In this document: one piece after another, positions 42,994 to 62,499 of the stretch
How the letters are laid out: each line of letters opens with the position of its first letter
Numbering within the stretch: position 1 is the first letter of the stretch
Source of the DNA: Rubellimicrobium rubrum
GTDB lineage: Bacteria > Pseudomonadota > Alphaproteobacteria > Rhodobacterales > Rhodobacteraceae
Direction: 5' to 3'
DNA: 63,870 bases
Assembly: GCF_006152115.1 (NCBI RefSeq)
Contig: NZ_VDFU01000024.1
Span: forward strand, 1 to 63,870
The notes under the pieces: model-generated
Seen by the model: the letters and a program-made list of their open reading frames with translations, nothing else
The model's database searches: none
What the model was told of the DNA's origin: nothing
Program-made: the position numbers and the translations under genes

Positions 42994-43784
42994 GGTGCTG
43001 TCAGACAGATGCGTACCAGTCTCTGTTTGGGCGGGTGCGTCCAACCTTAGGCGGCGCAGAACTGCCGCCAATCGGCGAGAGCGGCGGTCCGAGCGGCCTT
43101 GTGGACATTGCGGCTTGAGAGGCTCCGATCCGAGTTGAAACCGTTGCAAACAGAGGAATGGACGGCGACGACCTTCTGTAGGCTATGCATCTGTCGAAAG
43201 CGCAGCATAGCCCGCTCGCATCGTCGGAATGGCTAGTGGGAGTTCTCGACCCGGTTGTTCTCCCAGCGACCAGTGACCTGCTTATCCTCAGCCCCACCTG
43301 TTCGAGAGCGGCCCCGTAGGAGCGCAGACCGACCGTCACGAACTCTTCGGCTCGTCCATGCCGCTTCATCAACTTGCGCAGGAACTTCAGGGCAGCCTTC
43401 TTGTCCCGCGTCTTGGAAACCAAGGCCTCGAGCACCTCGCCTTCGTGGTCTACCGCCCGCCAGAGAGAGTGCTGCACGCCGTTGATCTTCACGAACACCT
43501 CGTCGAGGTGCCAGCGCCACTGGGACGAGTGCATACCGCTTGCCCGCTTCCTGCGGGTCTCGGCCGCGAACATCGGGCCGAAGCGCATCGACCAGAACCG
43601 TACCGTCTCGTGGCTGACCTCTATCCCACGCTCGTGGAGCAGGTCCTCCACATTCCGGAGCCACAAGGGGAACCAGACAGACATCCTCACCGCCAGCCGG
43701 ATGATCTCGGGGCTGCGCTGTGTCGTCCTCGGTAGGGTAGCTTGTGCCGCGCCCCGCTTAGGCGGCATCGCTCTGACAGAGTCA
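42994..43784 (-). mobile_element. IS6-family insertion sequence, best-preserved copy
   Basis: About 790 bases with inverted ends GGTGCTGTCAGA (from 42994) and GACTCTGTCAGA (read from 43783). The transposase runs on the minus strand: SPEIIRLAVRMS (zinc-ribbon/HTH start), NVEDLLHERGIEVSHETVRF, WHLDEVFVKINGVQHSLWR with the first catalytic Asp, VDHEGEVLEALVS with the second, LKFLRKLMKRHGRAEEFVTV, then GLRSYGAALEQVG. The frame then shifts near 43290; the DKQVTGRWENNRVENSH segment with the last catalytic Glu continues in another frame. It is therefore a pseudogene, although it resembles the other relics enough to serve as their reference. Confidence 0.82.
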
Positions 43785-45084
43785 TCGCACCTCATGAAGG
43801 AAATGCCTAAGCATCGAGCACTCTGCTTATTCCAAGCGCTGTGCGACGGAATAGTGCGTGTCGTGCGGCTGCGCCTCACTCTTGGCAAGGCGAAGTGCCA
43901 GCGCTCCCGATAGGCTGCATCCATGAGCAGCTCACTCCACATCGCCGAGGCCTTCAGACGATCCCTGTATTACGCTCGCAAGCATGACGACGCTCCGGTG
44001 TGCATTGCTGTGGCGCAAGCGACCAGTCAGTGGTTGCGCAGCCATGACGATGGTGACCGGGTGAGCCTTCGGTCCACGCTCCCCGACCTGCCTGTCGAGG
44101 CAGACCTCAGGGGTGGGGGCTGGAGAGTATGGATGCGCTGAGGCCATGACCCCGCGGCGTCTCCTTCACGCTCTTCGGAGACCTGGACGGCCCCCGGATG
44201 CGCTTCGGTGCGAAGACAAGCTGTAGCGACACTGGCAGTCACCTCGGGGCACTCAGGGACTTCGGTCAGTGCAGGTGACGGCATTGAGAGGTGTGAAATG
44301 CGGAACGCCAGTTTCTATGTGCTTCGCCTGCGCAACTTGCTGTTCATGGCTCTAGCGGTCAGGGCTGGCAGGCTCCTCAGCCAAGATGCTGCGAAAGAGG
44401 TCCTGCGACGGTAAACTCTGCTTTTCATTCCAGAGATTGGAACGACAGTCGCACTTGCTGCACAAGTCATCTGAGACTTGGCCCGCAGGCCAATCGGGTC
44501 TGAAGCGGCAGAACGCCAAGCTCCTGCCCCGCAGTAATGGGAGTGACCGCTCGTCGGCACGCTTGCTATCCAGCTGATCGCTCGCCGCAACGACAAGCCG
44601 AACGGCGCCTTGATGTCGAGTGAGAGCTTGGTGGCTCCATCGGCGCAGTTCCCTCCCTCCCTGCGCAGGCTGTTCGCGCTCCTGAGCCGACCAGTCCGCT
44701 CCGTGCTCCGGCCAGACCAACAGGGAACCTCGCTGAGGAGCGCGTGGCAGAGTTGAACCAGTTCGTCAGGCCGCAACAGGCGGGTGCGGGCCTGCCCATG
44801 TCGCATCGGCGAAGTAGCAGGAGTCACTTGAACGTCTTGCGAGTGACCAGATGCCCTGCAGCTTCGAAGGCCCCCTCACCGCCTTGGGGAGCGCCTGCCC
44901 CCTTCACGCCCATGACGTGAGAAAACTGCTCCCGAGCGGCCGACTGTTCCTCGGATCAAAGGCGATCCGCTTTTCACGGATTCCATCCACTCACGTCGTG
45001 CATCCTGCCATCTTGAAGCCAGTCACATGGCAACCACAAGGACCTGGGTGCCGCCACGCACATCATCTCTGATCTTTCTCGCCT
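43784..45084. other. Gene-poor 1.3-kb stretch, possibly decayed transposase
   Basis: No intact gene is recognised. A 72-codon open frame (43923-44141, plus) has no clear ribosome-binding site or family match. On the minus strand near 44580-44700 the reading GATKLSLDIKAPFGLSLRRA loosely recalls the TTKIHALVDAxGxPL region of IS5-type transposases, with frameshifts around it. Confidence 0.3.
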
Positions 45085-46887
45085 TTACGTGCTTTCCCGT
45101 AAAGCGTTGGACGAGAGATAAGCCCGCCAGCCACCGAAGGAGGTGATCTCCTCTGCCCCATCCAACGCATGGGCCTCGCACAGGAACCCGCTGACCGCGC
45201 TGCCGTCGGCGAGCGTCAGCTTACCGATGCCCAAGGGAGCCGGGATACGTGAGACGAAGGCCCCGAAGGCGGCTGCGGGAAGCGCCCAGACCTCGACCGC
45301 GATGCCGGGGCCGGTAAAGGCCGGGTCGTGGAGCAACCCCGGCTTCAGCGGCACGGTGCCCGGCAGGGCGTAGAGACGGTATTCTGGTGACGTCGTGGTC
45401 TCGGAAAGCCTTACGCCACCCGGCCCGGTCAGTTCGTGGTTGAGCGGCATATCGGTCAGATGAGCACCTACAACCGCGATAGGGAGCCAACCCGACGGCA
45501 GTTCGGGCAAGGGCGCCGCCGGCACTTGCGCCTGGCGGTCGCGACCTGCGCCGCAAGCGGCGGCCGCATGCAGGGCAGCGGCGAATGGTGCCAGCGCATC
45601 GTCGCTGAAGGCTGGTCCGACCAGCGTGACACCGGCGGGCAGCCCCGAGGGCCCGAACCCCGCAGGCACGGCGATCGCCGCAAGGCCCATGAGGTTGACG
45701 AAATTCGTATAACGCCCGAACTGGCTGTTCCGCGTGATGGGGTCGGCAAGCATCTCGACCACGGTGCAGGTGGTGGGCACGGTCGGCAGCATCAGCACAT
45801 CCACGGCCTCCCAGACGGGGGCGACCTGCTGACAGATCGCCTTCAGCCGGTAAAGACCGTTGAAGGCCTCGACCGCCGTCCGCCCCTTGGCGCCTTCGAT
45901 GATCCTCCTCACCGTCGGGTCGAAATCATCCGCGTTGGTCCCAAGGAACCCTTCGACGGCCGCCAATCGTTCGGCTACCCAAGGGCCTTCGTAGAGCAGC
46001 GCCGCCGCTTCGCGGAATGGGGCGTAGTCGAAGGGCAGGATTGTCGCCCCCAGCGCCTGCGCCCGCGCGATGGCGGCATCATACAGGGCTTCAACCTCTG
46101 CGTTGCCGAAGAATTCACGCTCGGTGCCGTGCAGGACTCCGATCCGCAAGCGCGGCGGCAGCGCGGCGGGCACGGCTGGCCGGGAGAACGGATCAGCGGC
46201 GTCGAATCCATCCATGACCCGGCGGACGGCCACACCGTCCTCCACCGAACCGGCAAGAACGGTGACGACATCCACAGACCGGCAGGCCGGAATGACACCG
46301 GTGTTTGGGACAAGTCCGGGTGTGGGCTTGATGCCGACGAGATTGTTGAAGGCGGCGGGCACCCGGCCCGAGCCAGCCGTATCGGTGCCAAGCGCAAAGG
46401 CACAGAGGCCCGAGGCGACAGCGACCGCCGACCCCGACGAAGACCCGCCCGAGACGTGATCGGCGCTGAAAACCGAGCGCGGTGCGCCATGCGGTGAACG
46501 CGTGCCGTTCAGGCCCGTCGCGAACTGGTCGAGGTTGGTCTTGCCGATGACGATAGCGCCTGCGGCACGCAGCCGGGCGATGACCGTCGCATCCTGGTCG
46601 GGCGCATAGGCATAGGCCGGGCAGGCCGCGGTGGTGGGTAGGCCCGCGACATCGATGTTGTCCTTGACCGCAAAGGGGATGCCCCAGAGCGGCAGGTCGC
46701 GCGGGCCAGCCATCACGGCTTGGGCAGCGGCGCGCAGGGCCTCGGCCGGTGTCTCGGTGATGAACACGGCGCGGTCGGGTATTGCATCGCGGCGGCGGAT
46801 CACTTCCTCCACCACGTCGAGCGGCGTATGGCCGCCTGCGTAGGCGGCGTTCAGAGCCGCAATCGTCATCATCGGGGGAAGCATCAT
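45085..46887 (-). CDS. atzF: Allophanate hydrolase
   Basis: 600 residues. The N-terminal two thirds are an amidase-signature domain: the catalytic Lys in PFAVKDNIDVAG, then HVSGGSSSGSAVAVASGLC with the cis-Ser, and the nucleophile in TDTAGSGRVPAAF. The C-terminal third (from about 440) is the AtzF-specific domain, with PSGWLPIAVVGAHL and YRLYALPGTVPLKPGLL. It splits allophanate into ammonia and carbon dioxide, the final step of guanidine or urea degradation through carboxylation. It is the last gene of the riboswitch-controlled operon. Its start overlaps the carboxylase stop (ATGATG), giving translational coupling. Confidence 0.94.
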   Translation of the reverse strand: MMLPPMMTIAALNAAYAGGHTPLDVVEEVIRRRDAIPDRAVFITETPAEALRAAAQAVMAGPRDLPLWGIPFAVKDNIDVAGLPTTAACPAYAYAPDQDATVIARLRAAGAIVIGKTNLDQFATGLNGTRSPHGAPRSVFSADHVSGGSSSGSAVAVASGLCAFALGTDTAGSGRVPAAFNNLVGIKPTPGLVPNTGVIPACRSVDVVTVLAGSVEDGVAVRRVMDGFDAADPFSRPAVPAALPPRLRIGVLHGTEREFFGNAEVEALYDAAIARAQALGATILPFDYAPFREAAALLYEGPWVAERLAAVEGFLGTNADDFDPTVRRIIEGAKGRTAVEAFNGLYRLKAICQQVAPVWEAVDVLMLPTVPTTCTVVEMLADPITRNSQFGRYTNFVNLMGLAAIAVPAGFGPSGLPAGVTLVGPAFSDDALAPFAAALHAAAACGAGRDRQAQVPAAPLPELPSGWLPIAVVGAHLTDMPLNHELTGPGGVRLSETTTSPEYRLYALPGTVPLKPGLLHDPAFTGPGIAVEVWALPAAAFGAFVSRIPAPLGIGKLTLADGSAVSGFLCEAHALDGAEEITSFGGWRAYLSSNALREST

Positions 46888-49800
46888 TCGCTCTCTATCA
46901 CTGCAAGGATTTCGCCCGCGCGGACCGTCCGCCCCGGGATGCCGTTCACGCTGCGCAGCCGACCTGTGACAGGGGCGTTCACCGCGAATTCCATCTTCAT
47001 CGACTCGATGATTGCAACCGGTTCCCCTGCCATCACCCGAGCGCCGGGCACGGCAAGGAACTTCCACAAGCTGCCCGGCACCGGGTTTTCCACCCCGATG
47101 CATCCGGGCGGCAGATCCGCCGCCGGCGCGAACGGGGCATCGAACGGGGTGAAGCTGTCAAGCCCCTCCTCGCGCCAGCGCGTGCGCTCGGCCTCGAACG
47201 CTGCCTGCTGGCGCGCCTTGAAGGTGGTGATGCTGGCCTCTTCGCGTGAGAGCGCGGCCTCCTCGGCCGACCAGTCGAACACGGTTTCCTCGATCTGCAA
47301 GGGATAAGCACCGTATGGAAAGGCCGTGCGCGCGTCGGCCAATTCCTCGGGGGAAACGAGGTGGAACCGGATCTGGTCGAAGAAGTCGAGCAGCCAGGGT
47401 CGACCGGCAAAGACGGGCGTTCGGCGCCAAGTGTTCCAGACCTGGACCGTGCGGCCGAACAGCTGATAGCCGCCGGGCCCTTCCATGCCGTAGATGCACA
47501 TATAGGCGCCGCCGATGCCTACGGCGTTCTCCGGCGTCCAAGTGCGAGCAGGGTTGTATTTGGTCGTCACGAGGCGCTGTCGAGGGTCCACGGGCGTCGC
47601 GACGGGCGCGCCCAGATAGACATCGCCCAGGCCCAGCACCAGATAGCGCGCGTCTAGAATGGTGCGCTGCACCTCGGCCTCGTCGGTCAGGCCGTTGATG
47701 CGGCGGATGAACTCGATGTTCGACGGGCACCAGGGCGCGTTCGGACGCACCAGCTCCTGATACTTGCGCATGGCGAGCTCGGCCTGGGGATCGTTCCAGG
47801 ACAAGGGTAGATGTACGATGCGGCTGGGAACCCGAACCGATCCGGCCATAGGCAGGGCCGCCTCGATCCGCTGCAGCTCCGCAATCAGGTCCAACCGGGT
47901 GATGCGGGTGGAGTCGTAATGGATCTGTAGCGACCGTATGCCCGGCGTCAGGTCAATGACCGGCAGCCCCGCCATTGCCACGGCCCGCATCAACAGGTGC
48001 ACTCGGAGCCGAAGAGCGATAGCCAGGGTTATCGGTCCGTACTCGACCAGCAGGTTCTCATCCCCCTGCCGCCGGTAGGTCACCGCCATGCCATCCCCGG
48101 CCTGCCACATGATCGGCGAGCCCGCGTCATTGTAGGCCGGCCCGGCCACCGGATCGGCCGGTCGCTCGGCTGGGATGAAGCGCACGGTGTCACCGGGCCG
48201 CAACTGGCCCAGCTTCCACAAGTCCTCCGCCGCCACCACGCCCGGGCAGACAAAACCGCCGAGACTCGGGCCGTCAGGTCCCAGAAGGATCGGCATGTCG
48301 CCGGTGAAGTCGATGGCGCCCACCGCGTAAGCGTTGTCATGGAGGTTCGAGGGGTGAAGCCCCGCCTCGCCTCCGTCGGCCCTCGCCCAGCGCGGCGGGG
48401 GGCCGATCAGGCGCACGCCCGTCCGGTCGGAGTTGTGGTGCACGTCATACGGGGACGAGAACAGGGTTTCGATATCGTCGGGAGCAAAGAAGTCCGGCGC
48501 GCCGTGCGGGCCATAGACCACTGAAAGAGTCCAGTCCCGTGTCAAAGGCGCCGGCTCGGGGACGGCAGGGGTGCCGACAGGATTCCCCGCGAAGGTCAGG
48601 AAGTCACCTGTCCGCAGCACGCCCGTGGCATGACCGCCAAAGCCGCCCAGCGCGAAGGTTGCGCGGGACTCCAGTATCTCGGGCGCGGCGAAGCCCCCCT
48701 CGACCGCCAGATAGGCGCGCTGCCCCGGCCCTTCGATGCTGCCCAGCGCCAGCACTCCGCCTACGGGGACATCGACGACCAGGCCCGGCATCGGCGCGCC
48801 GTTCAGCTCCATGCGCATTCGCGCACCCGCCAGCGCCACCCGGGCGGGCGACAGGAAGCGCAGGGTCGGGCCAGTCATCGTCAGTTCCAGCGCCGCGGTG
48901 TCCGGCGGGTTGCCCAGAAGGCGGTTGGCATTGCGCAGGCTGCGTGGATCCATCGGTCCAGACGGCGGCACCCCCACATGCCAGAGCCCTCGCCTGCCCG
49001 GCAGTTCCTGCAGGCTCGATTGCGCACCCGGAGCGAGAACCTCGACCCCTTGGGGCGCAAAGGAGAAAGCGGCCAAGGCCGAGGTGGTGACATCGCCCGC
49101 CCAGAAGATATCCGATTCCGCAATGGCAGAGAGGTAGGCGAGGTTCGTGGCGACCCCTGCAACGCGGGCGGCCGCGAGGGCCTTGCGGAGGGTGGTGATG
49201 GCGGCAGGGCGGTCCGGGCCATGCACGATGATCTTGGCCAGCATCGGGTCGTAGTAGGGCTCGACCACTGTGCCCGTCTCGATCCAGCCATCGACCCGGA
49301 CGCCCTCGGGGAAGGCGACCTCCGTCAGCCGCCCGGCCGAAGGACGAAAGCCCGCATGCGGCTGCTCGGCATAAAGCCGTGCCTCGATGGCGTGGCCCCT
49401 GGGCTGCGGCAGAACCGCGGGAATCGGGTCTTCGCCGGCGGCTTGCCGCACCATCCATTCCACCAAGTCGATCCCAAGGACCGCTTCGGTCACCGGGTGC
49501 TCGACCTGCAAGCGGGTGTTGACCTCAAGGAAGGCGGTTTCCTCCCGATCGGGGTCATAGATGAACTCCACCGTCCCGGCCGAGGCATAACCGACGCTGG
49601 CGCAGAGTGCCTCGGCTTCGCCAAGGAGCCGTCTGCGCAGGGCGTCGGGCAGGCGCGGCGCCGGAGTCTCCTCGATGACCTTCTGGTTGCGCCGCTGGAG
49701 CGAGCAGTCCCGCTCGCCCAGCGCCACGACCCGGCCGTGGCCATTGCCGAAGACCTGCACCTCCACGTGCCGCGCGCGGGCGATGAAGCGTTCCAGATAC

Positions 49801-50387
49801 ACGCGGGCGTCGCCGAAACTGGCCTTTGCCGTGCGCTCCACGCCTTGGAACGCGGCGCGCAACGCGGCTTCGTCGTCGCATCGGCTCATCCCGATGCCGC
49901 CCCCGCCCGCCGTCGATTTCAGCATGACCGGATAGCCGAGCGCGGCTGCCGCAGTCACCGCCGCGTCCACATCCGGCAGCAGCCCGGTGCCGGGCAGCAG
50001 CGTCACTCCGGCGGCCTGCGCCAGCTCCCTCGCCGTATGCTTGAGCCCGAAGGCGCGGATCTGCGGCGGCGACGGCCCGATGAAGGTGATGCCTGCCGCC
50101 GCGAGCGCCTCTGCGAAGTCCGCGTTCTCGGACAGGAAGCCGTAACCTGGATGGACCGCCTCGGCCCCCGTGGCCTTCGCGGCCGCAATCACGGCCTCGG
50201 CGTTCAGATAGCTTTCGGCCGCAGGCGCGGGGCCCAGACGAACGGCCTGGTCGGCCAGCCGGACATGCGGCGCAAAGCGGTCGGCGTCGGACCAGACCGC
50301 CACGGGAGAGATCCCCATGGCGCGCAAGGTTCTGATGATGCGCACCGCGATCTCGCCGCGGTTCGCTACAAGGACGGACTTGAACAT
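46884..50387 (-). CDS. Biotin-dependent guanidine/urea carboxylase
   Basis: 1167 residues. Residues 1-450 are the biotin carboxylase part (VANRGEIAVRIIRTLRAMGI, HPGYGFLSENADFAEAL, the ATP-grasp GGGGIGMSRC, and EVNTRLQVEHPVTE). The middle, about 465-1050, holds the KipA- and KipI-like carboxyltransferase domains (HVGVPPSGPMDPRSL, GDMPILLGPDGPSLGGFVCP, EGPGGYQLFGRTVQVW). The C-terminus is a biotinyl domain with IIESMKMEFAV, biotinylated at Lys about 1131. Formerly all called urea carboxylase; enzymes encoded with two DUF1989 proteins under a guanidine-I riboswitch act on guanidine, giving carboxyguanidine. That assignment here rests on context. Confidence 0.93.
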   Translation of the reverse strand: MFKSVLVANRGEIAVRIIRTLRAMGISPVAVWSDADRFAPHVRLADQAVRLGPAPAAESYLNAEAVIAAAKATGAEAVHPGYGFLSENADFAEALAAAGITFIGPSPPQIRAFGLKHTARELAQAAGVTLLPGTGLLPDVDAAVTAAAALGYPVMLKSTAGGGGIGMSRCDDEAALRAAFQGVERTAKASFGDARVYLERFIARARHVEVQVFGNGHGRVVALGERDCSLQRRNQKVIEETPAPRLPDALRRRLLGEAEALCASVGYASAGTVEFIYDPDREETAFLEVNTRLQVEHPVTEAVLGIDLVEWMVRQAAGEDPIPAVLPQPRGHAIEARLYAEQPHAGFRPSAGRLTEVAFPEGVRVDGWIETGTVVEPYYDPMLAKIIVHGPDRPAAITTLRKALAAARVAGVATNLAYLSAIAESDIFWAGDVTTSALAAFSFAPQGVEVLAPGAQSSLQELPGRRGLWHVGVPPSGPMDPRSLRNANRLLGNPPDTAALELTMTGPTLRFLSPARVALAGARMRMELNGAPMPGLVVDVPVGGVLALGSIEGPGQRAYLAVEGGFAAPEILESRATFALGGFGGHATGVLRTGDFLTFAGNPVGTPAVPEPAPLTRDWTLSVVYGPHGAPDFFAPDDIETLFSSPYDVHHNSDRTGVRLIGPPPRWARADGGEAGLHPSNLHDNAYAVGAIDFTGDMPILLGPDGPSLGGFVCPGVVAAEDLWKLGQLRPGDTVRFIPAERPADPVAGPAYNDAGSPIMWQAGDGMAVTYRRQGDENLLVEYGPITLAIALRLRVHLLMRAVAMAGLPVIDLTPGIRSLQIHYDSTRITRLDLIAELQRIEAALPMAGSVRVPSRIVHLPLSWNDPQAELAMRKYQELVRPNAPWCPSNIEFIRRINGLTDEAEVQRTILDARYLVLGLGDVYLGAPVATPVDPRQRLVTTKYNPARTWTPENAVGIGGAYMCIYGMEGPGGYQLFGRTVQVWNTWRRTPVFAGRPWLLDFFDQIRFHLVSPEELADARTAFPYGAYPLQIEETVFDWSAEEAALSREEASITTFKARQQAAFEAERTRWREEGLDSFTPFDAPFAPAADLPPGCIGVENPVPGSLWKFLAVPGARVMAGEPVAIIESMKMEFAVNAPVTGRLRSVNGIPGRTVRAGEILAVIESE

Positions 50388-50390
50388 GAT

Positions 50391-50984
50391 CTACCCCGAG
50401 ATCTCGACCGAGATCGGGGTCGGATCGAAACCGTTGCAAGGATTGTTGATCTGCGGGCAGTTCGAGATGACGCAAAGCACATCCATCTCGGCCACCATCT
50501 CCACATGATCGCCCGGCGAAGAGATGCCATCATCGATCGTCATCGCGCCGTTCGGGCTGATCGGCACGTTCATGAAGAAGTTGATGTTCGGCACGATGTC
50601 GCGCTTCGTCATGCCGTGACGCGCCAGCTCGAGGATGAAATTTTCGCGGCAGGCATGGAGATGGCGGGTTTCCTCTCCGAAGCGAACGGTGTTGGACTCG
50701 CACGAGCAGCAGCCCGCGCAGGTATCGTGCCGCCCGGCGGTGTCCGCGGTGACCGTCAGCATGACGCGGCCCTCCGAGGACATGATCCGCGTGCCCGTCG
50801 TGATGTAGGCAGCCCCTTGCGCGCGCATCGTGTCCTGCGCGGAGTAGCGTTCGCCGAAGTCGTGAGCATTGTAGAAGATGGTGTCGATGGCCTGCTGGCC
50901 ATAGGTATCGATGATGCGGATCGTCTGTCCCTTGCGGACGATGCCGGACCAGGGTCGTTCGGCGGGAATGTCGTGGACCTGCAT
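50391..50984 (-). CDS. DUF1989 protein, carboxyguanidine deiminase subunit (urea carboxylase-associated protein 2 type)
   Basis: 197 residues from the ATG at 50984. DUF1989 landmarks: DTYGQQAIDTIFYNAHDFGE, metal-site residues in HDTCAGCCSCESNT, HLHACRENFILELARHG, and PNINFFMNVP. The protein pairs with its larger paralogue encoded just upstream. In the characterised guanidine pathway the two form the carboxyguanidine deiminase, which removes ammonia from carboxyguanidine to leave allophanate for AtzF. The conserved Cys/His cluster probably binds a metal. The gene starts 4 bases after the paralogue ends and is 4 bases from the carboxylase start. Confidence 0.9.
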   Translation of the reverse strand: MQVHDIPAERPWSGIVRKGQTIRIIDTYGQQAIDTIFYNAHDFGERYSAQDTMRAQGAAYITTGTRIMSSEGRVMLTVTADTAGRHDTCAGCCSCESNTVRFGEETRHLHACRENFILELARHGMTKRDIVPNINFFMNVPISPNGAMTIDDGISSPGDHVEMVAEMDVLCVISNCPQINNPCNGFDPTPISVEISG

Positions 50985-50988
50985 CGCC

Positions 50989-51786
50989 TCAGCCCCTTGC
51001 ATTGTTCTCGAAGCCCCGGATCGCCTCGGCCGTCGCACTTCGGCAGAGGTCGTTTTCTCCCACGGGTCCCGGCTTCCGCAGCGTGATCGTGACAGGCGGC
51101 ACCTCAGCAAGGCTGGCGTCCAACGGGTGACGGTTGTTCGACAGAGCGAGCGTCAGCGGCATTTCAGCCCGAAGCTCCACCCAGTCGTCGCCAGACAGCA
51201 GCGCGGCATTCCAGAAGAACCGCCCCGCCGCATCCACCCGGACCGGAGCGAAGAAGGTCAGCAGAGCCGGCAGGTCGCGCCGGTCCAGGCCCAGTTTCGC
51301 GGCGGCGAGGATCATGTTGTCGCGCGTGTTGCGTTCGTTCGGCGTCCCCGCGCCGGTGGGGCCGGAGCCGCCGGTCAGGGCGTCATGCGCGCCGGAGCTG
51401 TCCTCGATGATGGACAGCATGACGCGGCCCATGTCCGAGAAGAGCACCCGACCTTTCCCAAGGTCGGTCGTCCACTGGACCTTGACCGTATCGGCCAGGT
51501 TCAGCCGTTCCGACGAATCCCGCGCCGCCCACGCAGCGAGCGAGACGCTGCCGCCCAATCCCCCCGCCTGGAGGCGCAGCACCTGACCTTGGTTTATCGC
51601 CATCGTCGTGTACCAACCGCCCGGCACCGACCGAACATGAAGGACATCTTCGGCTGTGGGGGCGGGGCGAGGGCTTGGCGAAGGCGGAGCCTTGGGCGCG
51701 AAGTTCAGGCCTCTGCGTTGGTGCTCCTCATAGCGGGCGCGATCGGCAGCCATGGCCTCTGGCGAACGGGGAGTGTGCGGCATCAT
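50989..51786 (-). CDS. DUF1989 protein, carboxyguanidine deiminase subunit (urea carboxylase-associated protein 1 type)
   Basis: 265 residues, the longer DUF1989 paralogue. After a Pro-rich linker it shows VPGGWYTTMAINQGQVLRLQ, NLADTVKVQWTTDLGKGRVL, FSDMGRVMLSIIEDSSGAHD, ERNTRDNMILAAAKLGLDRR and LTFFAPVRVDAAGRFFW. It lacks the CAGCCSCES cluster of the partner, so the partner is more likely the catalytic, metal-bearing subunit. The start overlaps the ATPase stop (ATGA). It belongs to the guanidine operon. Confidence 0.9.
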   Translation of the reverse strand: MMPHTPRSPEAMAADRARYEEHQRRGLNFAPKAPPSPSPRPAPTAEDVLHVRSVPGGWYTTMAINQGQVLRLQAGGLGGSVSLAAWAARDSSERLNLADTVKVQWTTDLGKGRVLFSDMGRVMLSIIEDSSGAHDALTGGSGPTGAGTPNERNTRDNMILAAAKLGLDRRDLPALLTFFAPVRVDAAGRFFWNAALLSGDDWVELRAEMPLTLALSNNRHPLDASLAEVPPVTITLRKPGPVGENDLCRSATAEAIRGFENNARG

Positions 51787-52619
51787 GCACGGGTTCCTTG
51801 GGCGGCCCGGGTCGTCCCGGTGGCAATCCCTGTCAGAGTCGGGTCGTCCCGACCGGGCGGAATGTCGGCGTCGTAAAGCGTCTGCTGTCCTGCCACGCGA
51901 GGCGGCCAGATGGAGATGTCGTTGGTCACGGAGGCGCCGTAGCGCTCGAGTTCTTCGGGGCGGTTGCGGCGGCGATCGAAGGCGATGACCCGCGTGGCAA
52001 GGGAGAAGGCCTCGCGCATGTCGTGGGTGACCATGATGACCGTCATCTCGTGCTCATGCCAAAGTCGCCGCATCAGCGCGTGGATCTCGACCTTAATGCC
52101 AGGGTCGAGCGCGCCGAAGGGTTCGTCGAGCAGGAGGAGCCTGGGCCGCATCATGAGGGCCTGGGCCAGCGCAAGCCGCTGCTGCATCCCGCCGGACAGC
52201 CGGGCGGGAAACTTGTGCTCGGCCCCAGCCAGCCCGACTTCCGCCAGGAGGGCGCTGGCCCGATCGGCCAAGCCTCGCCTCGCGGCGCCCCAGACCCGTC
52301 CGCTCAGCCGGGACGCCCGAAGTTCCGGCCCCAGCATCACGTTCTGCAGCACGGTCAGGTGCGGAAAGACGGAGTAGCGCTGCGTCACCACCCCGCGATC
52401 GGGACCCGGTTCGGGCGGCAGAGGCACGCCGTCGATCAGGATCGTTCCGCGCGTCGGCCGTTCCTGCCCCAGCATCATTCGGAGAAACGTCGTCTTTCCA
52501 CAGCCCGACGGACCGACGAGCGCCACGAAGGCACGAGGCGCGATCGTAAGATGAATGTTCTCCAGGACGACCTGCTGCCCGTACTCCTTCCAGAGCCCCT
52601 CGATCACCAGCCCACTCAT
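51783..52619 (-). CDS. ABC transporter ATP-binding protein (NitT/TauT type)
   Basis: 278 residues. Walker A GPSGCGKTT near residue 37, Q-loop VVTQRYSVFPHLT, signature LSGGMQQRLALAQAL near 147, Walker B LLLLDEPFGALDP, and HDMREAF with the switch His. The C-terminal extension after about 215 (PEELERYGASVTNDISIWPP) is characteristic of the ATPases encoded with urea-carboxylase-type operons. It powers import by the permease and receptor encoded upstream. Starts overlap on both sides (ATGA), so the transporter and enzymes are translated from one message. Confidence 0.92.
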   Translation of the reverse strand: MSGLVIEGLWKEYGQQVVLENIHLTIAPRAFVALVGPSGCGKTTFLRMMLGQERPTRGTILIDGVPLPPEPGPDRGVVTQRYSVFPHLTVLQNVMLGPELRASRLSGRVWGAARRGLADRASALLAEVGLAGAEHKFPARLSGGMQQRLALAQALMMRPRLLLLDEPFGALDPGIKVEIHALMRRLWHEHEMTVIMVTHDMREAFSLATRVIAFDRRRNRPEELERYGASVTNDISIWPPRVAGQQTLYDADIPPGRDDPTLTGIATGTTRAAQGTRA

Positions 52620-52705
52620 GTCGGCGCCTCCGGCTCGGCCCAGGGATAGGCCCAGCGTCGGAGCGCCTGCAGGCTCAGATCCATCGCCACGGCGAGAAGC
52701 GTGAT

Positions 52706-53434
52706 CTAGGCGACGTAAGGAAAGATGATGTCCATCGAGAGATAGCGGCGGACAAGAAAGATGCGGTAGCCGAGGCCGGCCTCCGCCGAGATCGCTTCCG
52801 CCGCGATGAGGAACAGGAAAGCGGGGCCGAGTTGCAGTCGCAGGCTGTCGATCAGGCGTGGCATGATCTGAGGCAGCACCACCCGTAATGCAATGAGCCA
52901 GGTCGAGGCTGACAACGTCTCGGCCTTGACGATCTGCTCGCGGGGAAGATCGGCGGCGGTAAGCGCGAGGTCGCGTGTCAGGATCGGGGCCACGCCGATG
53001 ACGATGAGCGCGATCTTGGATACTTCGCCCAGGCCCAGCACGATGAACAGGACCGGCAGCAGCGCGAGCGGGGGCACCATCGACAGAAAGGCGACGAAGG
53101 GGCCCAGCAACGCACGCGCGACCGGCAGCACTCCGGTCAGGAGGCCGACGAACAAAGCGATGGCCGTGGCGATCGCCAGCCCCGATCCAAGGCGTTTCAG
53201 GCTGGCCGCGGTGTCTGCCCAGAGAAGGTAGTCCCCTGTCCTCTGGTCCGGGGCGAACGCCATGACCTCCACCATTCGCGCCATGGCCGAGAGAGCCGGC
53301 AAAAGCTTGTCCGACGGGTTGTCCGCCAGTCGCAGCGCCGAGCCGACAACATAGGTGAGAGCGAGCACCACAAAGGGCAGCGCGCCCAGGATGATCCGTG
53401 CCCCCCGGTCCGGGCGAAGATTGATGAGCCGCAT
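52706..53434 (-). CDS. ABC transporter permease (NitT/TauT type), cut short by an in-frame TAG
   Basis: 242 residues to an amber codon at 52706-52708. It has about six membrane segments and the family loop EQIVKAETLSASTWLIALRV. The frame stays open past the TAG for another 29 codons (ITLLAVAMDLSLQALRRWAY, then PWAEPEAPT) and stops at 52616-52618, overlapping the ATPase start by ATGA, exactly where an intact permease should end. The family normally has Trp (TGG) at this position (PYVAW-I), so a single G-to-A change explains it. The lost part is the last membrane helix. The transporter may be inactive, or the amber is read through, or it is a sequencing error. Confidence 0.88.
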   Translation of the reverse strand: MRLINLRPDRGARIILGALPFVVLALTYVVGSALRLADNPSDKLLPALSAMARMVEVMAFAPDQRTGDYLLWADTAASLKRLGSGLAIATAIALFVGLLTGVLPVARALLGPFVAFLSMVPPLALLPVLFIVLGLGEVSKIALIVIGVAPILTRDLALTAADLPREQIVKAETLSASTWLIALRVVLPQIMPRLIDSLRLQLGPAFLFLIAAEAISAEAGLGYRIFLVRRYLSMDIIFPYVA

Positions 53435-53444
53435 CGCCGAGCCC

Positions 53445-54512
53445 TTACAGCGCGCCGTCGGCAGCCATCTGCATGTAATCGGCCGTGAAACGCAGCTTCA
53501 CGTTGGCTGCGTCACCCAGCACCGCTCCGCCCGGCAGCTCGATGCCGATGACATCGGGAGAGGCAGCCCCCATTCCCAGTAGCCCATTGTCGAACAGGAA
53601 GGTGCGGACGCGATCCATGGTCTCCGAGAGTTCGGGCGAGGTAGTGAAGGCCACGGCGTCGGCAGGCACGTCGAAAAGCCGCGTCGCGGCAAGCTGGCTT
53701 TCGAACCCCGCCTGGTCGGTTCCCGAGGCCGCGCCCATGGCTGCCCGTGCCGCCGCGCCTTCGGGCGTGTCCGATGTCATCAGCGCGGCAGTCTCGTACC
53801 AGATGCCCGCCAACGCCTTGCCGAAATCGGGGTTCTCGGCCAGCACGGCGGTGTTCGCCACCATCAGGTCGATGATCTCTCCCGGGATCTGGCCCGAGTC
53901 GAAGACTTTCGTCGCATCCGGCAGGGCCTCGATCTCGGCCACCATGGGGTTCCACGTCACCATCGCGGTCACGTCGTCGGTCTGGAAGGCACCGACCATG
54001 TCGGGATCGGCCGTGTTGACCACGGTGACATCCGCTTCGGTCAGGCCGACCGAGTCGAGCGCCCGGGCGAGCAGGTAATGGGAGACGGAGAACTCGACGA
54101 GGTTCACCGGCCGACCTGCGACATCGGCAAGCGTCCCCGGGCCCTTGAGAAACACGGCGTCGTTGCCGGCCGAGAAATCCCCGACGATGACAGCCGTGGT
54201 GTCCACACCACCGGCCGACGGGATCGACAGCGCGTCCATGTTCGTGACCGTCACCGCATCATAGGCGCCGGCGGTGTACTGGTTGATGGACTCCACGTAG
54301 TCGTTGAACTGCGTGACCTCGATCGTCAGGCCATACTTGTCTGCCCATCTCTTCACGATCCCCGTCTCGGCGGCATAGCCCCAAGGCATCCAGCCCACGT
54401 AGATCGACCAAGCGACGCGGAAGTCCGTTCGGGTCTGGGCCATCGCGGGCTGCAGCGCGAGCGTTCCGAGCGCCGTGAGCCCGGCCAGAAGCGTGGTGCG
54501 GCGTGAAATCAT
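53445..54512 (-). CDS. ABC transporter substrate-binding protein, guanidine/urea-type (NitT/TauT family)
   Basis: 355 residues from the ATG at 54512 with an AGGAAG site. The signal peptide is MISRRTTLLAGLTALGTLAL then QPAMAQ, cleaved after AMA. The mature protein shows FRVAWSIYVGWMPWGYAAET, the family opening, then EVTQFNDYVESINQYTAGAYD, AVTVTNMDALSIPSAGGVDT, and MVTWNPMVAEIEALP. This receptor type is encoded in nearly all riboswitch-controlled urea/guanidine carboxylase operons. It is the first gene behind the riboswitch, so it leads the operon. Ligand is most probably guanidinium. Confidence 0.92.
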   Translation of the reverse strand: MISRRTTLLAGLTALGTLALQPAMAQTRTDFRVAWSIYVGWMPWGYAAETGIVKRWADKYGLTIEVTQFNDYVESINQYTAGAYDAVTVTNMDALSIPSAGGVDTTAVIVGDFSAGNDAVFLKGPGTLADVAGRPVNLVEFSVSHYLLARALDSVGLTEADVTVVNTADPDMVGAFQTDDVTAMVTWNPMVAEIEALPDATKVFDSGQIPGEIIDLMVANTAVLAENPDFGKALAGIWYETAALMTSDTPEGAAARAAMGAASGTDQAGFESQLAATRLFDVPADAVAFTTSPELSETMDRVRTFLFDNGLLGMGAASPDVIGIELPGGAVLGDAANVKLRFTADYMQMAADGAL

Positions 54513-54543
54513 GGTTCTTCCTTTCCTGTTCAGTTGGGAATGG

Positions 54544-54555
54544 ACGAACCTTCGT
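54544..54555. promoter_or_regulatory. 12-base perfect palindrome after the riboswitch
   Basis: ACGAACCTTCGT-type palindrome between the riboswitch and the receptor gene's ribosome-binding site; on the transcript it can form a small ACGAA/TTCGT hairpin. It may be part of the expression platform, though no T-tract follows. Confidence 0.3.
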
Positions 54556-54581
54556 GCAGCCAATCCCGTGGCTCGACGAGG

Positions 54582-54679
54582 TCTCCCGGGTTTTTGTCCC
54601 GCCGTGCGCCGCCGGGGATGTCTCTCCCGTGCGGTGACAGCTCTCGGACCAGCCGCGCCCCACGGCGCCGGAACCCTAG
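54582..54679 (-). promoter_or_regulatory. Guanidine-I (ykkC) riboswitch
   Basis: Read on the minus strand, the leader holds the three conserved blocks of the class in order and spacing: CTAGGGTTCCGG starting at 54679, GGCTGGTCCGAGAG at 54654-54641, and ACGGCGGGACAAAAACCC followed by GGGAGA at 54605-54582. These are the P1 start, the internal conserved loop and the ligand-pocket end. It lies 70 bases before the receptor start codon. Guanidinium binding turns expression on. Its presence ties the whole downstream operon to guanidine rather than urea. Confidence 0.95.
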
Positions 54680-54854
54680 CCGTCAACTCCTCTTCAGGAT
54701 GCCGGATCGCGGGGCACCGGCAATGGACAGCGCGACGCGTTAGGCTAGGAGAGTGTCACTGCCGCCGGAACGGGCAACGCAGAACCGACAGTGCCAGGAA
54801 AATGGGCAGACTAGGCACCGGTGGCAGGCTGGATGGGGCAGGTTTCCACCCGAC

Positions 54855-55685
54855 TCAGGTCTCACGAGGCAAGGCAGCCTCTTCCGAAGCCCAGCGCGCC
54901 TCGTAGGCATCGATGATTGCAAGCATCCGCTCGCGCCCGAAGCTCGGGTCGTGGCCGCCGTGGATGGTGGTCACCGGCAGGGCACGAAGCTTGGCGAAGG
55001 TGTCCCGATAGGCCGCCACGCTCATGCCTGGGCCGTCATAGATCAGAGGCCCGTCATAGATTGCGTCAGCCGCGAACAGGATGCCCGTGGTCCGCTCGAA
55101 GAGCCCGATGCCCCCCGGCGAATGGCCAGGCAGGTGGAGCACCTCGTAGAGATGGCCCCCAAGATCGAGCGTATCGCCCTCGTTCAGGAGCCCAGTCGCC
55201 TGGGCGCCCCGCAGGCGATAGCTCTCGGGGTCGTATCCCTCATGGGGCAGCGCCTCGATCAGCATCTCGCCGATCGGCGGATAGCCCGCATCGAGGAAGG
55301 TCTGCAGCAGGCGTTCAGGCATGTCGCGCCTGAACAGCGAATGCAGGCCGGACGGCCTCGCCATCTCCTCGGCTTCCAGAGGATGGACAAGGCGGGTCTC
55401 GAACTCATGGGCCGCGCCGATATGGTCGATATGGGTGTGCGACGACACGCATACGATGGGCTTGTCAGGATCGCGGCGCAGGTGGTCGAGGAAAGGGCGC
55501 AGTGGCACCACGCCCATTCCTGTGTCGAGGATCATGTCTCGATCCCGGCCTTGGACCAGCCACATGTTGGCCTGCTCGAGCACATGAACATGCGGCTCGA
55601 TGATCAGGGTGGTGTCGGCGTCGATCTGTGTGGCCTGATACCACGTCTCGGCAATCGGAAGGGGCAGGATGGTCTCGCACTTCAT
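54855..55685 (-). CDS. Metallo-beta-lactamase fold hydrolase
   Basis: 276 residues. The metal motif is SHTHIDHIG near residue 83, where the usual HxHxDH opens with Ser-His-Thr-His-Ile-Asp-His. Further ligands are probably His in LPGHSPGGIGLF near 190 and Asp in FAADAIYDG near 209, and the last His is in IHGGHDPSFG. A helical insert lies between about 105 and 160. It is likely a zinc hydrolase of a small-molecule lactone, ester or amide. It is the last gene of the 61049-54855 operon; its start overlaps the previous gene (ATGA). Substrate not inferable from sequence. Confidence 0.85.
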   Translation of the reverse strand: MKCETILPLPIAETWYQATQIDADTTLIIEPHVHVLEQANMWLVQGRDRDMILDTGMGVVPLRPFLDHLRRDPDKPIVCVSSHTHIDHIGAAHEFETRLVHPLEAEEMARPSGLHSLFRRDMPERLLQTFLDAGYPPIGEMLIEALPHEGYDPESYRLRGAQATGLLNEGDTLDLGGHLYEVLHLPGHSPGGIGLFERTTGILFAADAIYDGPLIYDGPGMSVAAYRDTFAKLRALPVTTIHGGHDPSFGRERMLAIIDAYEARWASEEAALPRET

Positions 55686-56428
55686 GGATTAACGGGAATT
55701 TCGGACAGGCGGAGGGTCTGCTCGACCATGCGCCCGTGGAAATTGGGCAAGACGAGTTGCGCGCGGTCGCCTCGGCGCGAGAGCACCGCATGGCCCTCGC
55801 AGAAGGGCTGGGTGGAGAGGTCAGCTATCCCCTCCTCCCCCGACCAGTGCCCCAGCACATAGACCGAGGCGAAAACGTCCGAGGCTTCCTCGGCGCTGGC
55901 GCTGCCATCTCGCAGGGCTTCCGGCAGCCCGGGCCAGGACGGTGCCCCACGTTGTCCGAGCGCCAGAACGAACCCGGCATCATGGCTGAGCAGCAGTCCG
56001 TCGGCGCCATCCGCTTCCACCGCCTCGGCTATCCATGGGCCGGTCAGAACGCACTGCCATTCCTCCCTGTAGTCGCTATGTGCGCCATCTTCGACCAGCC
56101 GACCGAACGAGTCGAACCGCAGGATCCCGGCGTCGACCGGGGTGGGGAAGCCCCGCCAGTTCCATTCGCGATGCCAGGTGCAAAGGTCGCCATCGAGCGT
56201 GACGCGCCCAGCAAAGCCCTCGGCCGAAAGAAGGATGGCAAGATCACTTGGCGCCATGTCGGAGAGTGACCCTCCGGCCTCGAGGCCGGGGCGGCTCAGA
56301 GGCACTCGGATGTCGGCGCACCACTGGCCGGCCTGCAGCCAATGCACACGGGTCGTCAGGTCCTCCGTTCCCGGGGCACGCAGCCAGTTGCGCCGCCAGT
56401 GGCCCTGCAGGTCGGCCGGTGAGATCAC
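55682..56428 (-). CDS. Uncharacterised protein, probable beta-barrel (lipocalin-like)
   Basis: 248 residues, Trp-rich, with alternating strands: LQGHWRRNWLRAPGTEDLTT, VHWLQAGQWCADIRVPLSRP, LCTWHREWNWRGFPTPVDAG and DYREEWQCVLTGPW. No signal peptide or membrane segment. The N-terminal WRRNWL and the V-x-WLQAG-x-x-x-DIRVP motif suggest a small-ligand-binding barrel, but I cannot place it in a named family with confidence. It overlaps the genes on both sides by 4 bases (cysteine hydrolase upstream, metallo-hydrolase downstream), so it is an integral member of the operon and probably acts with those two enzymes. Confidence 0.8.
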   Translation of the reverse strand: MISPADLQGHWRRNWLRAPGTEDLTTRVHWLQAGQWCADIRVPLSRPGLEAGGSLSDMAPSDLAILLSAEGFAGRVTLDGDLCTWHREWNWRGFPTPVDAGILRFDSFGRLVEDGAHSDYREEWQCVLTGPWIAEAVEADGADGLLLSHDAGFVLALGQRGAPSWPGLPEALRDGSASAEEASDVFASVYVLGHWSGEEGIADLSTQPFCEGHAVLSRRGDRAQLVLPNFHGRMVEQTLRLSEIPVNP

Positions 56429-57039
56429 GCGGCAGCCGCGCTTCGGCCACCCAGTTCGGCCATGATCTGATCGGCCGTCAGCACGGCACCCGTCTGAAGG
56501 TATTCCATCGCCCTCAGAGAGGCCTCATGGGCCGCAAGGGAGGACCCTCCGACACAATCAGCGATCACGCGGCAGTAGTAGTCGTTCTGGTGGCCATCGG
56601 CGAAGGTATAATGCACGCAGACATCCGTCAGCCCGCCGATCAGGATGAGGGTCTGCGCCTTGAGACCCTTGAGAAGGATCTCGAGTTCGGTGCCGAAGAA
56701 CGCCGAATAGCGGCGTTTGTGGATGAAGTAGTCGCCGGGCAGACGGCCCATCTCCTCGAAGGCAGGCGGGGTGCCGGGCTCTCCCTCCATGCAGTGGACG
56801 TCTTCGGTCCCATCCAGCTCGCGGCCGTAGTCCACCATGTCGCGGCGATGGATCTCCTGGATGAACACGACGGGGATCCCGGCTCCATGGGCGGCATCCA
56901 CCACGCCCCGGGCGCGCTCCATGTTGGCGCGGTAGCCCGGCATGATAGGGATGCCGGCCTTGTCATCCATGAAGGCGGATTTCTGGATGTCGATGACGAC
57001 CAGGACGGCGTTCCCGACGATCGTTGGCTGGACAGGCAT
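56425..57039 (-). CDS. Cysteine hydrolase, isochorismatase family
   Basis: 204 residues with the family catalytic triad visible: Asp 17 in VVIDIQKSAF, Lys 108 in FIHKRRYSAFFGT, and nucleophile Cys 141 in GGLTDVCVHYT. The cis-peptide GGLTD is also conserved. Members hydrolyse amide-type bonds (nicotinamide, N-carbamoylsarcosine, biuret, ureidoacrylate). Clustered with a polyamine-type importer and beside a guanidine operon, an amidohydrolase acting on an N-carbamoyl or ureido compound is attractive but unproven. It starts 23 bases after the upstream permease gene. Confidence 0.9.
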   Translation of the reverse strand: MPVQPTIVGNAVLVVIDIQKSAFMDDKAGIPIMPGYRANMERARGVVDAAHGAGIPVVFIQEIHRRDMVDYGRELDGTEDVHCMEGEPGTPPAFEEMGRLPGDYFIHKRRYSAFFGTELEILLKGLKAQTLILIGGLTDVCVHYTFADGHQNDYYCRVIADCVGGSSLAAHEASLRAMEYLQTGAVLTADQIMAELGGRSAAAA

Positions 57040-57062
57040 GGGGGATTTCCTTTCTGGAGGGC

Positions 57063-57866
57063 TTAGTGGCGGGACTGGTCCGCGCCCATCAGGCGCGGCA
57101 GGTCCCCCCAGCGGGCGACGGCGGAAAACACGGCGATGGACACGGCGATGAAGGCCACGGCAGCCACGGCCATGGTTGGGGTGTAGCCGTTGCGCAGTGA
57201 GTTGAAGATCTGGAGCGTGACGGTCGCAAACGCGGAGGCGGAGACGAAGAACATCACGATGAACTCGTTAAACGACAGTACGAGTGCGAAGAAGAACCCC
57301 GAGATCGTGTAGGGCAGCGTCTGGGGCAGGACGATCGTGCGAAAGATCACACCGTCGGTTGCGCCCATGGTGGCAGCCGCATCCAGATGCGCGCGATCGA
57401 TGGCCTGCAGCCCAATCGAGATGGTGACCAGCGGCAGCGCGAGAAACAGCGCCGCGTGGCTGACGATCCCTGCCCAGATCGAGCCGAGCCCACCGAGGAA
57501 GGCCCAGAAGAAGCCCAGCCCCACACCGAAGACGATGGGTGGCAGGGCAAAGGGGATCGACCCCAGCGCCGCCAGCGTCGCCGAATGGCGCGAGCCGGAC
57601 TTCCACAGGCGATAGCAGATGGGCCAGGCCAGAAGCACCGCAAGCGTCGAGGAGCCAAGCGCCACGATCACCGAATTGGCCAAGGCCCGCGTCCAGACCG
57701 GCTCGGAGACAAAGAACTCGGTAAAGCGGGCAAGCGTCGGATCCTCTGGCGGGAAGTACATGGTGCGCCCGCCGTTCAGCGCTGCGCTGCAGACCACAGC
57801 GATTGGAAGCACAACGACGATCGCCGCCAGCGCCATGAACAGATGGCCGAACACCCTCAGCATCAA
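57063..57866 (-). CDS. ABC transporter permease (PotC-like)
   Basis: 267 residues with six membrane segments and the permease EAA loop (IDRAHLDAAATMGATDGVIF, near 165-185). It has the binding-protein-dependent permease (BPD_transp_1) layout of spermidine/putrescine-type importers. Its start overlaps the end of the partner permease by 4 bases. Works with the gene at 57863-58888 as the inner-membrane heterodimer. Confidence 0.9.
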   Translation of the reverse strand: MMLRVFGHLFMALAAIVVVLPIAVVCSAALNGGRTMYFPPEDPTLARFTEFFVSEPVWTRALANSVIVALGSSTLAVLLAWPICYRLWKSGSRHSATLAALGSIPFALPPIVFGVGLGFFWAFLGGLGSIWAGIVSHAALFLALPLVTISIGLQAIDRAHLDAAATMGATDGVIFRTIVLPQTLPYTISGFFFALVLSFNEFIVMFFVSASAFATVTLQIFNSLRNGYTPTMAVAAVAFIAVSIAVFSAVARWGDLPRLMGADQSRH

Positions 57867-58888
57867 GAGGCCCCCTCCGACCGGCGTGACAACCGCTGCC
57901 CCAGGACAAGGAACGCCGCCGCCGTGACCAACAGGATGACCGACTGCGCCGCTCCGAACGGAGCATTCAGCGTACTGCCGCGGACATGCTCGAAGACCGA
58001 TACGGCGGTGGTCTGCTTTGCCGGATCGGCAAAGACCGTCACCGCCACATAGCCGCCCAGAAGGAAGACGAACAACAGGAGCGCCGTCCCCATGAGCGGC
58101 AGCCGCACCGCGGGAAGGATGACGGTGCGCGCAACGGTCCAGGGTCGAGCGCCCATCGTGCGGGCCGCCTCTGCCATCGAAGGGTCGAGACGCGACAGCG
58201 CCGGATAGAGGAGGATCACGGCATAGGGCCAGACGAGGTATGACATGGTTAATACCGTGGCGAACTCCGAAGTCTTGAACTTCACGTTGCGCGGACTCGC
58301 GAGGCCCCAGTCCCGCAGCACGTCGAACCAGCCTGTGGCCTTCATCCAGTCGGTCAGGCCCGACGCCGAGAAGAGCACCGGCAGGCCCGAATTGTTCGAC
58401 AGGATGATGTCCCAGCCCATCACGATGAACACTTCGGACAGCGACAAGCTGGTCAGGAGAAAGACCAGCCAGCGCGCTTGCGCCCTGCGGGACTGTCGCG
58501 TCAGCAGATATGTGAAGGGCAGCGCAGTGGCGACGGCCAGGACGGATGCGACGACGGCATAGCGCATCGACCAGTAAAGCTGGGTCAGGTAGAGGAATGT
58601 CGTTTCAGCCGGCCAATTCGCCCCCACCAGGAAGCGGTAATAGTTCTCGAACGTGAAGGCCCATTCCCAGCCGGCGCCTTCGACCTTGTGACCAAATGAG
58701 ATTGCGACGACGAGGCCGAGCGGCACGACGCAAAGGAACAGGACCACGCACCAGATCAGTGTGGTCACACCGGCGCGAAGAAAGCGGTGGCCCAAGGCTC
58801 CGCGATCATCGGCGGCCTGCACGGCGTCGGCTCTCGCCTTCCGCGGGCTTTCGGCCATCGCGGGCTCGGGATGGCCCACCACGCTCAT
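57863..58888 (-). CDS. ABC transporter permease (PotB-like)
   Basis: 341 residues. A 35-residue polar N-terminus precedes six membrane segments; the EAA loop is MAEAARTMGARPWTVARTVI (near 245). The long second periplasmic loop (FSASGLTDWMKATGWFD) is usual in PotB-type subunits. It overlaps the ATPase gene by 4 bases (ATGA) and the PotC-like gene likewise. Part of the polyamine/opine-type importer. Confidence 0.9.
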   Translation of the reverse strand: MSVVGHPEPAMAESPRKARADAVQAADDRGALGHRFLRAGVTTLIWCVVLFLCVVPLGLVVAISFGHKVEGAGWEWAFTFENYYRFLVGANWPAETTFLYLTQLYWSMRYAVVASVLAVATALPFTYLLTRQSRRAQARWLVFLLTSLSLSEVFIVMGWDIILSNNSGLPVLFSASGLTDWMKATGWFDVLRDWGLASPRNVKFKTSEFATVLTMSYLVWPYAVILLYPALSRLDPSMAEAARTMGARPWTVARTVILPAVRLPLMGTALLLFVFLLGGYVAVTVFADPAKQTTAVSVFEHVRGSTLNAPFGAAQSVILLVTAAAFLVLGQRLSRRSEGAS

Positions 58889-59958: not shown

Positions 59959-59966
59959 GTCGGCAC

Positions 59967-61049: not shown

Positions 61050-61355
61050 CGTCCTGCTCCGCATAAGGGCGAGGTGGCGTGTCACCTCTTGTTCCCGAAC
61101 CGCTGCCGAAGGGTCTCCTGTCCACAAGGGACCGGAGACAAGACTCCGCCGGGCCTGAGCCAAGCTTAGGATCAGGGCCGAATCGTCGGACACATGAAAG
61201 CGGCAGCTTCCAGCATCGCCGCGGGTGATTGCCTCTTGTTCATGCAATTGGCCGGCGAACCTGCGGAAAGTTGGTCGGTTCCTGTATGCCGATGGCTCCT
61301 GTCACGTCCCGCTGCCGCAGGATCGGACCTGTTACGTGATTCCAAGGAGATGACG
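61050..61355. promoter_or_regulatory. Divergent promoter region with a direct repeat
   Basis: This 306-base region separates the receptor gene (minus) from the 2-oxoglutarate oxygenase gene (plus). CCTGTCACGT at 61298 and CCTGTTACGT at 61328 are a direct repeat exactly 30 bases apart, about three helical turns. They lie just upstream of the oxygenase ribosome-binding site and could be an activator or repressor site. Confidence 0.35.
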
Positions 61356-62432: not shown

Positions 62433-62462
62433 AGCGAGCAGTCGCGCCTTGTGTTCGCGGGG

Positions 62463-62499
62463 CGCCAGCCGCCTCGCTTCTAGCGGCATGCGGCTGGCG
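62463..62499 (+). terminator. Strong hairpin after the oxygenase gene
   Basis: CGCCAGCCGC at 62463-62472 pairs perfectly with GCGGCTGGCG at 62490-62499. No T-tract follows, so it may be a weak or factor-assisted terminator, placed 30 bases after the stop codon. Confidence 0.5.

Follow-up and report, generated by a model that had tools for sequence, protein, structure and literature searches.

The window, meaning the whole 63,870-nucleotide stretch analysed here, is contig NZ_VDFU01000024.1 of Rubellimicrobium rubrum (assembly GCF_006152115.1, positions 1–63,870), and it carries on its reverse strand a putative guanidine assimilation operon containing two riboswitch classes: Guanidine-I in the leader and Guanidine-II (mini-ykkC) nested in the end of an ABC ATPase coding sequence. 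Pfam and NCBIfam searches place the genes in the order substrate-binding protein, permease, ATPase, UAAP1, UAAP2, carboxylase and allophanate hydrolase. The features are, in the direction of transcription:

54581–54690 (−), Guanidine-I riboswitch aptamer; Rfam RF00442, 78.8 bits, E 2.3e-12; model R2, 94.2 bits
54513–54580 (−), Guanidine-I-to-first-gene stretch, candidate translational expression platform; no terminator, complementarity between a leader segment and the Shine-Dalgarno sequence (SD)
53445–54512 (−), substrate-binding protein of the importer; NCBIfam TIGR03427, 528.5 bits, cut-off 333.9 (searched with one extra codon, from 54515)
52706–53434 (−), permease; Pfam PF00528; terminated by an in-frame TAG at 52708–52706
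51783–52619 (−), ABC ATPase; Pfam PF00005; Guanidine-II element within its last 24 codons
51807–51855 (−), Guanidine-II riboswitch aptamer inside the ATPase coding sequence; Rfam RF01068, 42.2 bits, E 5e-05; model R1, 44.1 bits
51853–51838 and 51820–51807 (−), Guanidine-II hairpins 1 and 2; Rfam RF01068
51795–51799 (−), SD-like AAGGA before the UAAP1 start; read from the sequence
50989–51786 (−), UAAP1 (DUF1989), carboxyguanidine deiminase subunit; TIGR03425, 211.2 bits, cut-off 205.95
50391–51002 (−; start at 51002 or 50984), UAAP2 (DUF1989), second deiminase subunit; TIGR03424, 323.1 bits, cut-off 284.7
46884–50387 (−), guanidine-type biotin carboxylase; TIGR02712, 1691.9 bits, cut-off 1303.85
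45085–46887 (−), allophanate hydrolase; TIGR02713, 764.2 bits, cut-off 511.05; Pfam PF01425 and PF21986

Gene content and inferred function of the operon

The covariance model, the gene content and two diagnostic aspartates of the carboxylase all support assigning these genes to ATP-dependent guanidine assimilation under a Guanidine-I riboswitch. Guanidine-I had been proposed in a sequence-only reading of this DNA and was borne out by the covariance scan (78.8 bits against a gathering cut-off of 63); the upstream boundary given there, 54679, took in the riboswitch but cut off 11 bases of the aptamer, which extends to 54690. The importer genes, two DUF1989 proteins, carboxylase and allophanate hydrolase named in that reading were likewise recovered, as NCBIfam families above curated cut-offs or, for the permease and ATPase, by Pfam. 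Its statement that all genes overlap or lie within a few bases of each other fails between permease and ATPase, where 86 bases separate the permease end at 52706 from the ATPase start at 52619. The allophanate hydrolase has both the amidase and AH_C domains and exceeds its equivalog score. By family scores rather than by placement in the CgdA and CgdB clades, the adjacent DUF1989 proteins of UAAP1 and UAAP2 types, both above their NCBIfam cut-offs, would constitute carboxyguanidine deiminase CgdAB. The pathway as outlined in a review leads from guanidine through carboxyguanidine and allophanate to ammonia and CO2 (PMC12186494).

The names of TIGR02712 and TIGR03427 would suggest that the operon serves urea, and NCBIfam labels the former urea carboxylase despite the guanidine-type residues of the window protein. 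We regard a urea operon as scarcely credible, given that in an alignment of the carboxylase to 3va7 the residues corresponding to K. lactis 1330 and 1584 are both Asp, which is the defining rule for guanidine carboxylase in PMC11410670, and given the presence of two guanidine riboswitch classes and both DUF1989 genes. K. lactis numbering follows a 593-residue offset to 5i8i counted by hand, and the first Asp is residue 693 of the window carboxylase. Among 80 related loci (described below), the motif around the first diagnostic position was found in 76, all with Asp, and was not found in four. An operon of importer, DUF1989 pair, carboxylase and allophanate hydrolase behind Guanidine-I is already known biology, and the sequence-only reading was right to call the operon type known; its account of a standard gene order with nothing new was incomplete, having overlooked both the nested second guanidine riboswitch class (51855–51807) and the in-frame stop of the permease.

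A Guanidine-II riboswitch at the ATPase/UAAP1 junction

The Guanidine-II element scores above its gathering cut-off (42.2 versus 32 bits) and has two hairpins, each with an ACGA loop. The ATPase frame crosses both hairpins and its stop at 51783 overlaps the UAAP1 start at 51786 as ATGA, the 3′ end of the element lying 20 bases before that start with the SD-like AAGGA in between. The window's own genome holds one match to each class, Guanidine-I and Guanidine-II.

Conservation was assessed in 80 UAAP1 loci, mainly from Rhodobacterales and Hyphomicrobiales, which are the best 80 of at least 548 confirmed relatives; as the best-scoring ones they lean to near kin, and two of them (L001 and L055) appear to be one and the same locus. 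A covariance model, R1, was built from 17 of 23 Guanidine-II matches, all outside the ATPase/UAAP1 junction; five at the junction (L001, L002, L007, L012 and L013) and one below the cut-off with an odd second loop (L021) were left out. Run against 1.33 Mb of sequence, comprising the window and the 80 loci, R1 gave 78 matches at E ≤ 1, one per source, with 74 below 0.01. All of them lie just upstream of UAAP1, in the window and 77 of the 80 relatives (73 of these 77 at E < 0.01), and nowhere else at E ≤ 1. The sources lacking a match are L081, cut by a contig end, and L086 and L089, which have degenerate elements; in L118 the match covers just part of the element, at the end of a contig. The Guanidine-I model R2, built from 16 of 19 matches (left out were the window's own L031 and the weak matches L040 and L041), placed an element ahead of this operon in 77 of the 80 loci, all but L080, L081 and L118, as well as in the window. 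Both guanidine riboswitch classes in one operon are the rule in this sample.

Tracing the ATPase frame by homology divided 76 classifiable cases, window included, into 46 with the element fully inside the frame, 21 half-nested, in which the ATPase terminates within the inter-hairpin linker, and nine intergenic, with the ATPase ending before the element (L080, L081 and L118, where no ATPase was found, and L086 and L089, lacking an R1 match, were set aside). Past the conserved IWPPR the ATPase continues for 30–46 residues in nested, 20–21 in half-nested and 6–8 in intergenic loci. The ATPase stop lies within 30 nucleotides of the UAAP1 start, taken as the candidate with the best SD, in 46/46 nested, 0/21 half-nested and 0/9 intergenic loci, and 22 of the 46 have the exact ATGA overlap. 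RefSeq gene models have the ATPase gene spanning the Rfam Guanidine-II match in Thioclava and Rhizobium indicum plasmids and ending before it in an Agrobacterium tumefaciens plasmid, and the element also falls within the ATPase frame in genomes of three further families (L007, L012, L013). A 78-row tree accounts for the four layouts with three changes, and on it the window's 19-row clade is entirely nested; this is a quick tree with midpoint rooting, which does not give the direction of changes. One record on it, L045, titled Exiguobacterium profundum (metagenome-assembled genome SSD5), falls in a Paracoccaceae-type clade for both UAAP1 and ATPase and is probably a mislabelled bin.

Conservation of RNA rather than peptide

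A nested element might be kept on account of the C-terminal peptide of the ATPase, the Guanidine-II match being incidental. Consistent with this, hairpin 1 is read in a single phase in all 46 nested loci, as Arg/Gln/Trp-Asp-Asp/Gly-Pro/Leu. Its variable residues, however, occur as Arg...Pro (36 loci), Gln...Leu (6), Trp...Leu (2) and Arg...Leu (2), the combinations permitted by base or wobble pairing of the codons, so that the amino acids swap together. Hairpin 2 is read in three phases (0, 1 and 2 in 27, 5 and 14 of the 46 loci), and the RNA is still kept in the 21 loci whose ATPase stops between the hairpins and the nine in which it stops before them. The model that scores the element was also made from other loci. 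When 38 nested elements were aligned with MAFFT (eight copies or near-copies among the 46 were dropped), 91.1% of cells pair versus 83.8 in shuffles, and 43 cells changed on both sides as opposed to 16.7 ± 3.2 in shuffles, none of 500 being as high and slid structures reaching at most 21. On the strength of the hairpin 2 phases, the stops inside and before the element and the paired base changes, what is conserved at the ATPase end is the RNA and not the peptide; the peptide explanation of the conserved tail was rejected on the same grounds as very improbable and already contradicted.

Guanidine-I and its leader

The usual expression platform of Guanidine-I is an intrinsic terminator, according to the same review (PMC12186494). 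No terminator-like site was found in 54300–54900; a terminator is not a defining feature of the Guanidine-I aptamer. Three leader segments are kept in relatives: a segment following the aptamer, a pyrimidine segment and the purine SD. Complementarity exceeds that of shuffles both between the two segments (mean z −2.34; 25 of 41 relatives below −2) and between segment and SD (mean z −2.08; 20 of 41 below −2). The window leader shows only the complementarity to the SD (z −6.0), that between the segments standing at −1.1. Because an intrinsic terminator is lacking and these complementarities rise above shuffles, we infer that Guanidine-I controls the translation start of the first gene. Behind Guanidine-I in L098 and L071, the first conserved segment carries A in place of G and the facing pyrimidine segment T in place of C, a small sign that the two segments may pair.

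Proposed regulation at the junction

The interpretation that follows starts from what was observed, namely both motifs, the nesting, the conservation of RNA over peptide and the overlapping stop and start. Guanidine-II is described in the review as a translational ON switch (PMC12186494). We consider it probable that guanidine is sensed twice in succession along the operon, the second time at a junction that is both translated and coupled. Guanidine-I in the leader would gate the importer genes, and Guanidine-II in the last ATPase codons would gate, or boost, the translation start of UAAP1. Each ribosome ending the ATPase would have to melt the aptamer and would then stop at the UAAP1 start, baseline UAAP1 translation being supplied by coupling from the ATPase. 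Between ribosomes the two short hairpins could refold, kiss on guanidine and favour fresh UAAP1 initiation, with the net effect that the enzymes would rise relative to the importer once guanidine is inside. A coupling baseline with guanidine-dependent fresh initiation is the scheme we rank most likely; it would entail that the window copy binds guanidine, switches in this direction and refolds between ribosomes. The broader proposition, that Alphaproteobacteria run the ATPase frame through a functional Guanidine-II that works as a riboswitch while being translated, its stop meeting the next start, is put forward tentatively and with rather more doubt than confidence. If it is true, one 70-base stretch would be coding sequence, ligand sensor and coupling site at once, and upstream ribosome traffic and guanidine would be sensed jointly where the import genes give way to those for degradation.

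Several observations weigh against this interpretation. With both hairpins enforced in ViennaRNA, which leaves out the loop-loop contact, the SD was not freed (mean unpaired 0.29 free versus 0.28 forced; 76 elements), and complementarity between linker and SD was weakly above shuffles (64 distinct linker/SD pairs, mean z −0.60, p < 0.05 in 8 of 64, window p 0.19). These two results do not bear out the SD-masking model that was tried for Guanidine-II, and its switching step is therefore offered here conditionally. Of the five covariation measures, two are no higher than in shuffles, namely pairs with double change (7; 115 of 500 shuffles as high) and further pair types (16; 328 of 500). Full nesting cannot be a requirement, since 30 of the 76 cases are half-nested or intergenic. 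Finally, the in-frame stop in the permease questions the function of the window copy. The TAG occupies a codon that is Trp in all 77 relatives with a permease match, and beyond it the relatives' permeases run for 28–30 more codons in 76 of the 77 (127 in L045). A genuine nonsense mutation or a sequencing or assembly error could account for the TAG; with the permease interrupted, importer function in this strain is uncertain.

Two further explanations accept the element as genuine RNA. It might bind guanidine and yet be overridden by ribosomes and stop/start coupling, mattering only on untranslated or processed mRNA and being partly a relic. That 22 of the 46 nested loci have ATGA-type coupling, that folding shows no SD release and that L086 and L089 carry degenerate elements would all fit, but 77 of 80 loci retain the element at the one junction, with compensatory changes despite translation, and a relic should decay more often; we judge this unlikely. 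Somewhat less likely again is that Guanidine-II acts on transcription, through Rho-dependent polarity, or on mRNA stability of the enzyme genes rather than on UAAP1 initiation. Folding without SD masking is compatible with such action, as is the analogy of the metE B12 switch of Mycobacterium tuberculosis, for which SD masking and an mRNA loss attributed to Rho are described (PMC11260477). An element 20 bases before the UAAP1 start with an SD in between is, however, the usual layout of translational control.

Neighbouring genes

Genes on the same strand upstream of the operon (54855–61247) encode a protein of metallo-beta-lactamase fold, a 248-amino-acid protein without assignment, an isochorismatase-type hydrolase and a complete ABC importer. 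A biuret-type hydrolase was considered for the isochorismatase-type protein at 56425–57039 and rejected (NCBIfam BiuH, 63.4 bits versus a cut-off of 370). No guanidine riboswitch was found before the 61247–54855 genes; the sole match at E ≤ 1 in 54860–63870, to psaA at 22.2 bits versus a cut-off of 50, is taken as chance. Downstream of the operon lies an open reading frame for an IS240-type DDE transposase (43001–43942; PF13610, 81 bits).

Distribution of Guanidine-II in the phylum

Across the phylum 398 genomes were sampled; UAAP1 exceeded its cut-off in 42, of which 39 loci were examined (the window's own genome, G053 and G130 having been covered before). A Guanidine-II match at E ≤ 0.1 occurred in 28 of the 39, with none in the other 11 within about 1.5–2 kb either side of UAAP1; these 11 may have Guanidine-II further off, as the stretches reach only that distance. 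Elements from other classes, 23 in number, lie just before the carboxylase gene, 22 of them after the UAAP2 stop (L124 not determined). Five elements from the window's own class lie before UAAP1: three nested, one intergenic and one without a recognised ATPase in the stretch. Placement before the carboxylase agrees with the enterobacterial order given in the review, where Guanidine-II precedes carboxylase and hydrolase (PMC12186494), and the Alphaproteobacteria place it differently.

Guanidine-II also precedes PACE-family genes (PF05232, chlorhexidine efflux) in the three relatives tested (L003, L009, L020) and, by look alone, in L011, L015 and L018. The element is not confined to positions before SMR/Gdx exporters, which hints that PACE proteins may export guanidine; among the papers listed in a search of the open-access literature, none deals with this by title. 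In L005 an apparent Mutator-type transposase fragment follows Guanidine-II, by look, in place of an exporter gene.

Comparison with known systems

The component parts of this system are already known, and its novelty lies in the arrangement, with Guanidine-II nested in a coding sequence; among the matches listed for the open-access literature, none describes a Guanidine-II riboswitch located within a coding sequence. Riboswitch searches usually target non-coding leaders, and elements inside annotated genes are easily overlooked. The arrangement raises a testable general question, that of a small aptamer sensing its ligand under ribosome traffic in combination with stop/start coupling, for which the nested, half-nested and intergenic versions in Rhizobiaceae already offer a natural set of test cases. 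Within the same pathway, moreover, a single regulatory RNA is positioned differently across bacterial classes.

The closest counterpart is the published enterobacterial cluster, which serves the same pathway with Guanidine-I before importer and deiminase genes and Guanidine-II further down. There, Guanidine-II stands before the carboxylase and hydrolase genes, whereas here it lies within the ATPase coding sequence, ahead of the first of the two deiminase genes. The Guanidine-II elements in efflux-gene leaders of the window's relatives are the same aptamer, and R1, whose 17 source elements are of this kind or lie elsewhere away from the junction, recognises the nested ones; those inspected lie away from the ATPase/UAAP1 junction, whereas the aptamer described here is coding. 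For the combination of a riboswitch with a translated frame and AUGA reinitiation, the ppe2 B12 riboswitch of M. tuberculosis is a precedent, with its translated upstream open reading frame and AUGA termination-reinitiation (PMC11260477). Both the metE and ppe2 switches resemble the present element in having a translated frame in or beside the riboswitch. They differ from it in aptamer and ligand and in that their frames, as described there, are short upstream open reading frames, whereas the Guanidine-II element of R. rubrum falls at the end of an upstream gene that is complete and homologous.

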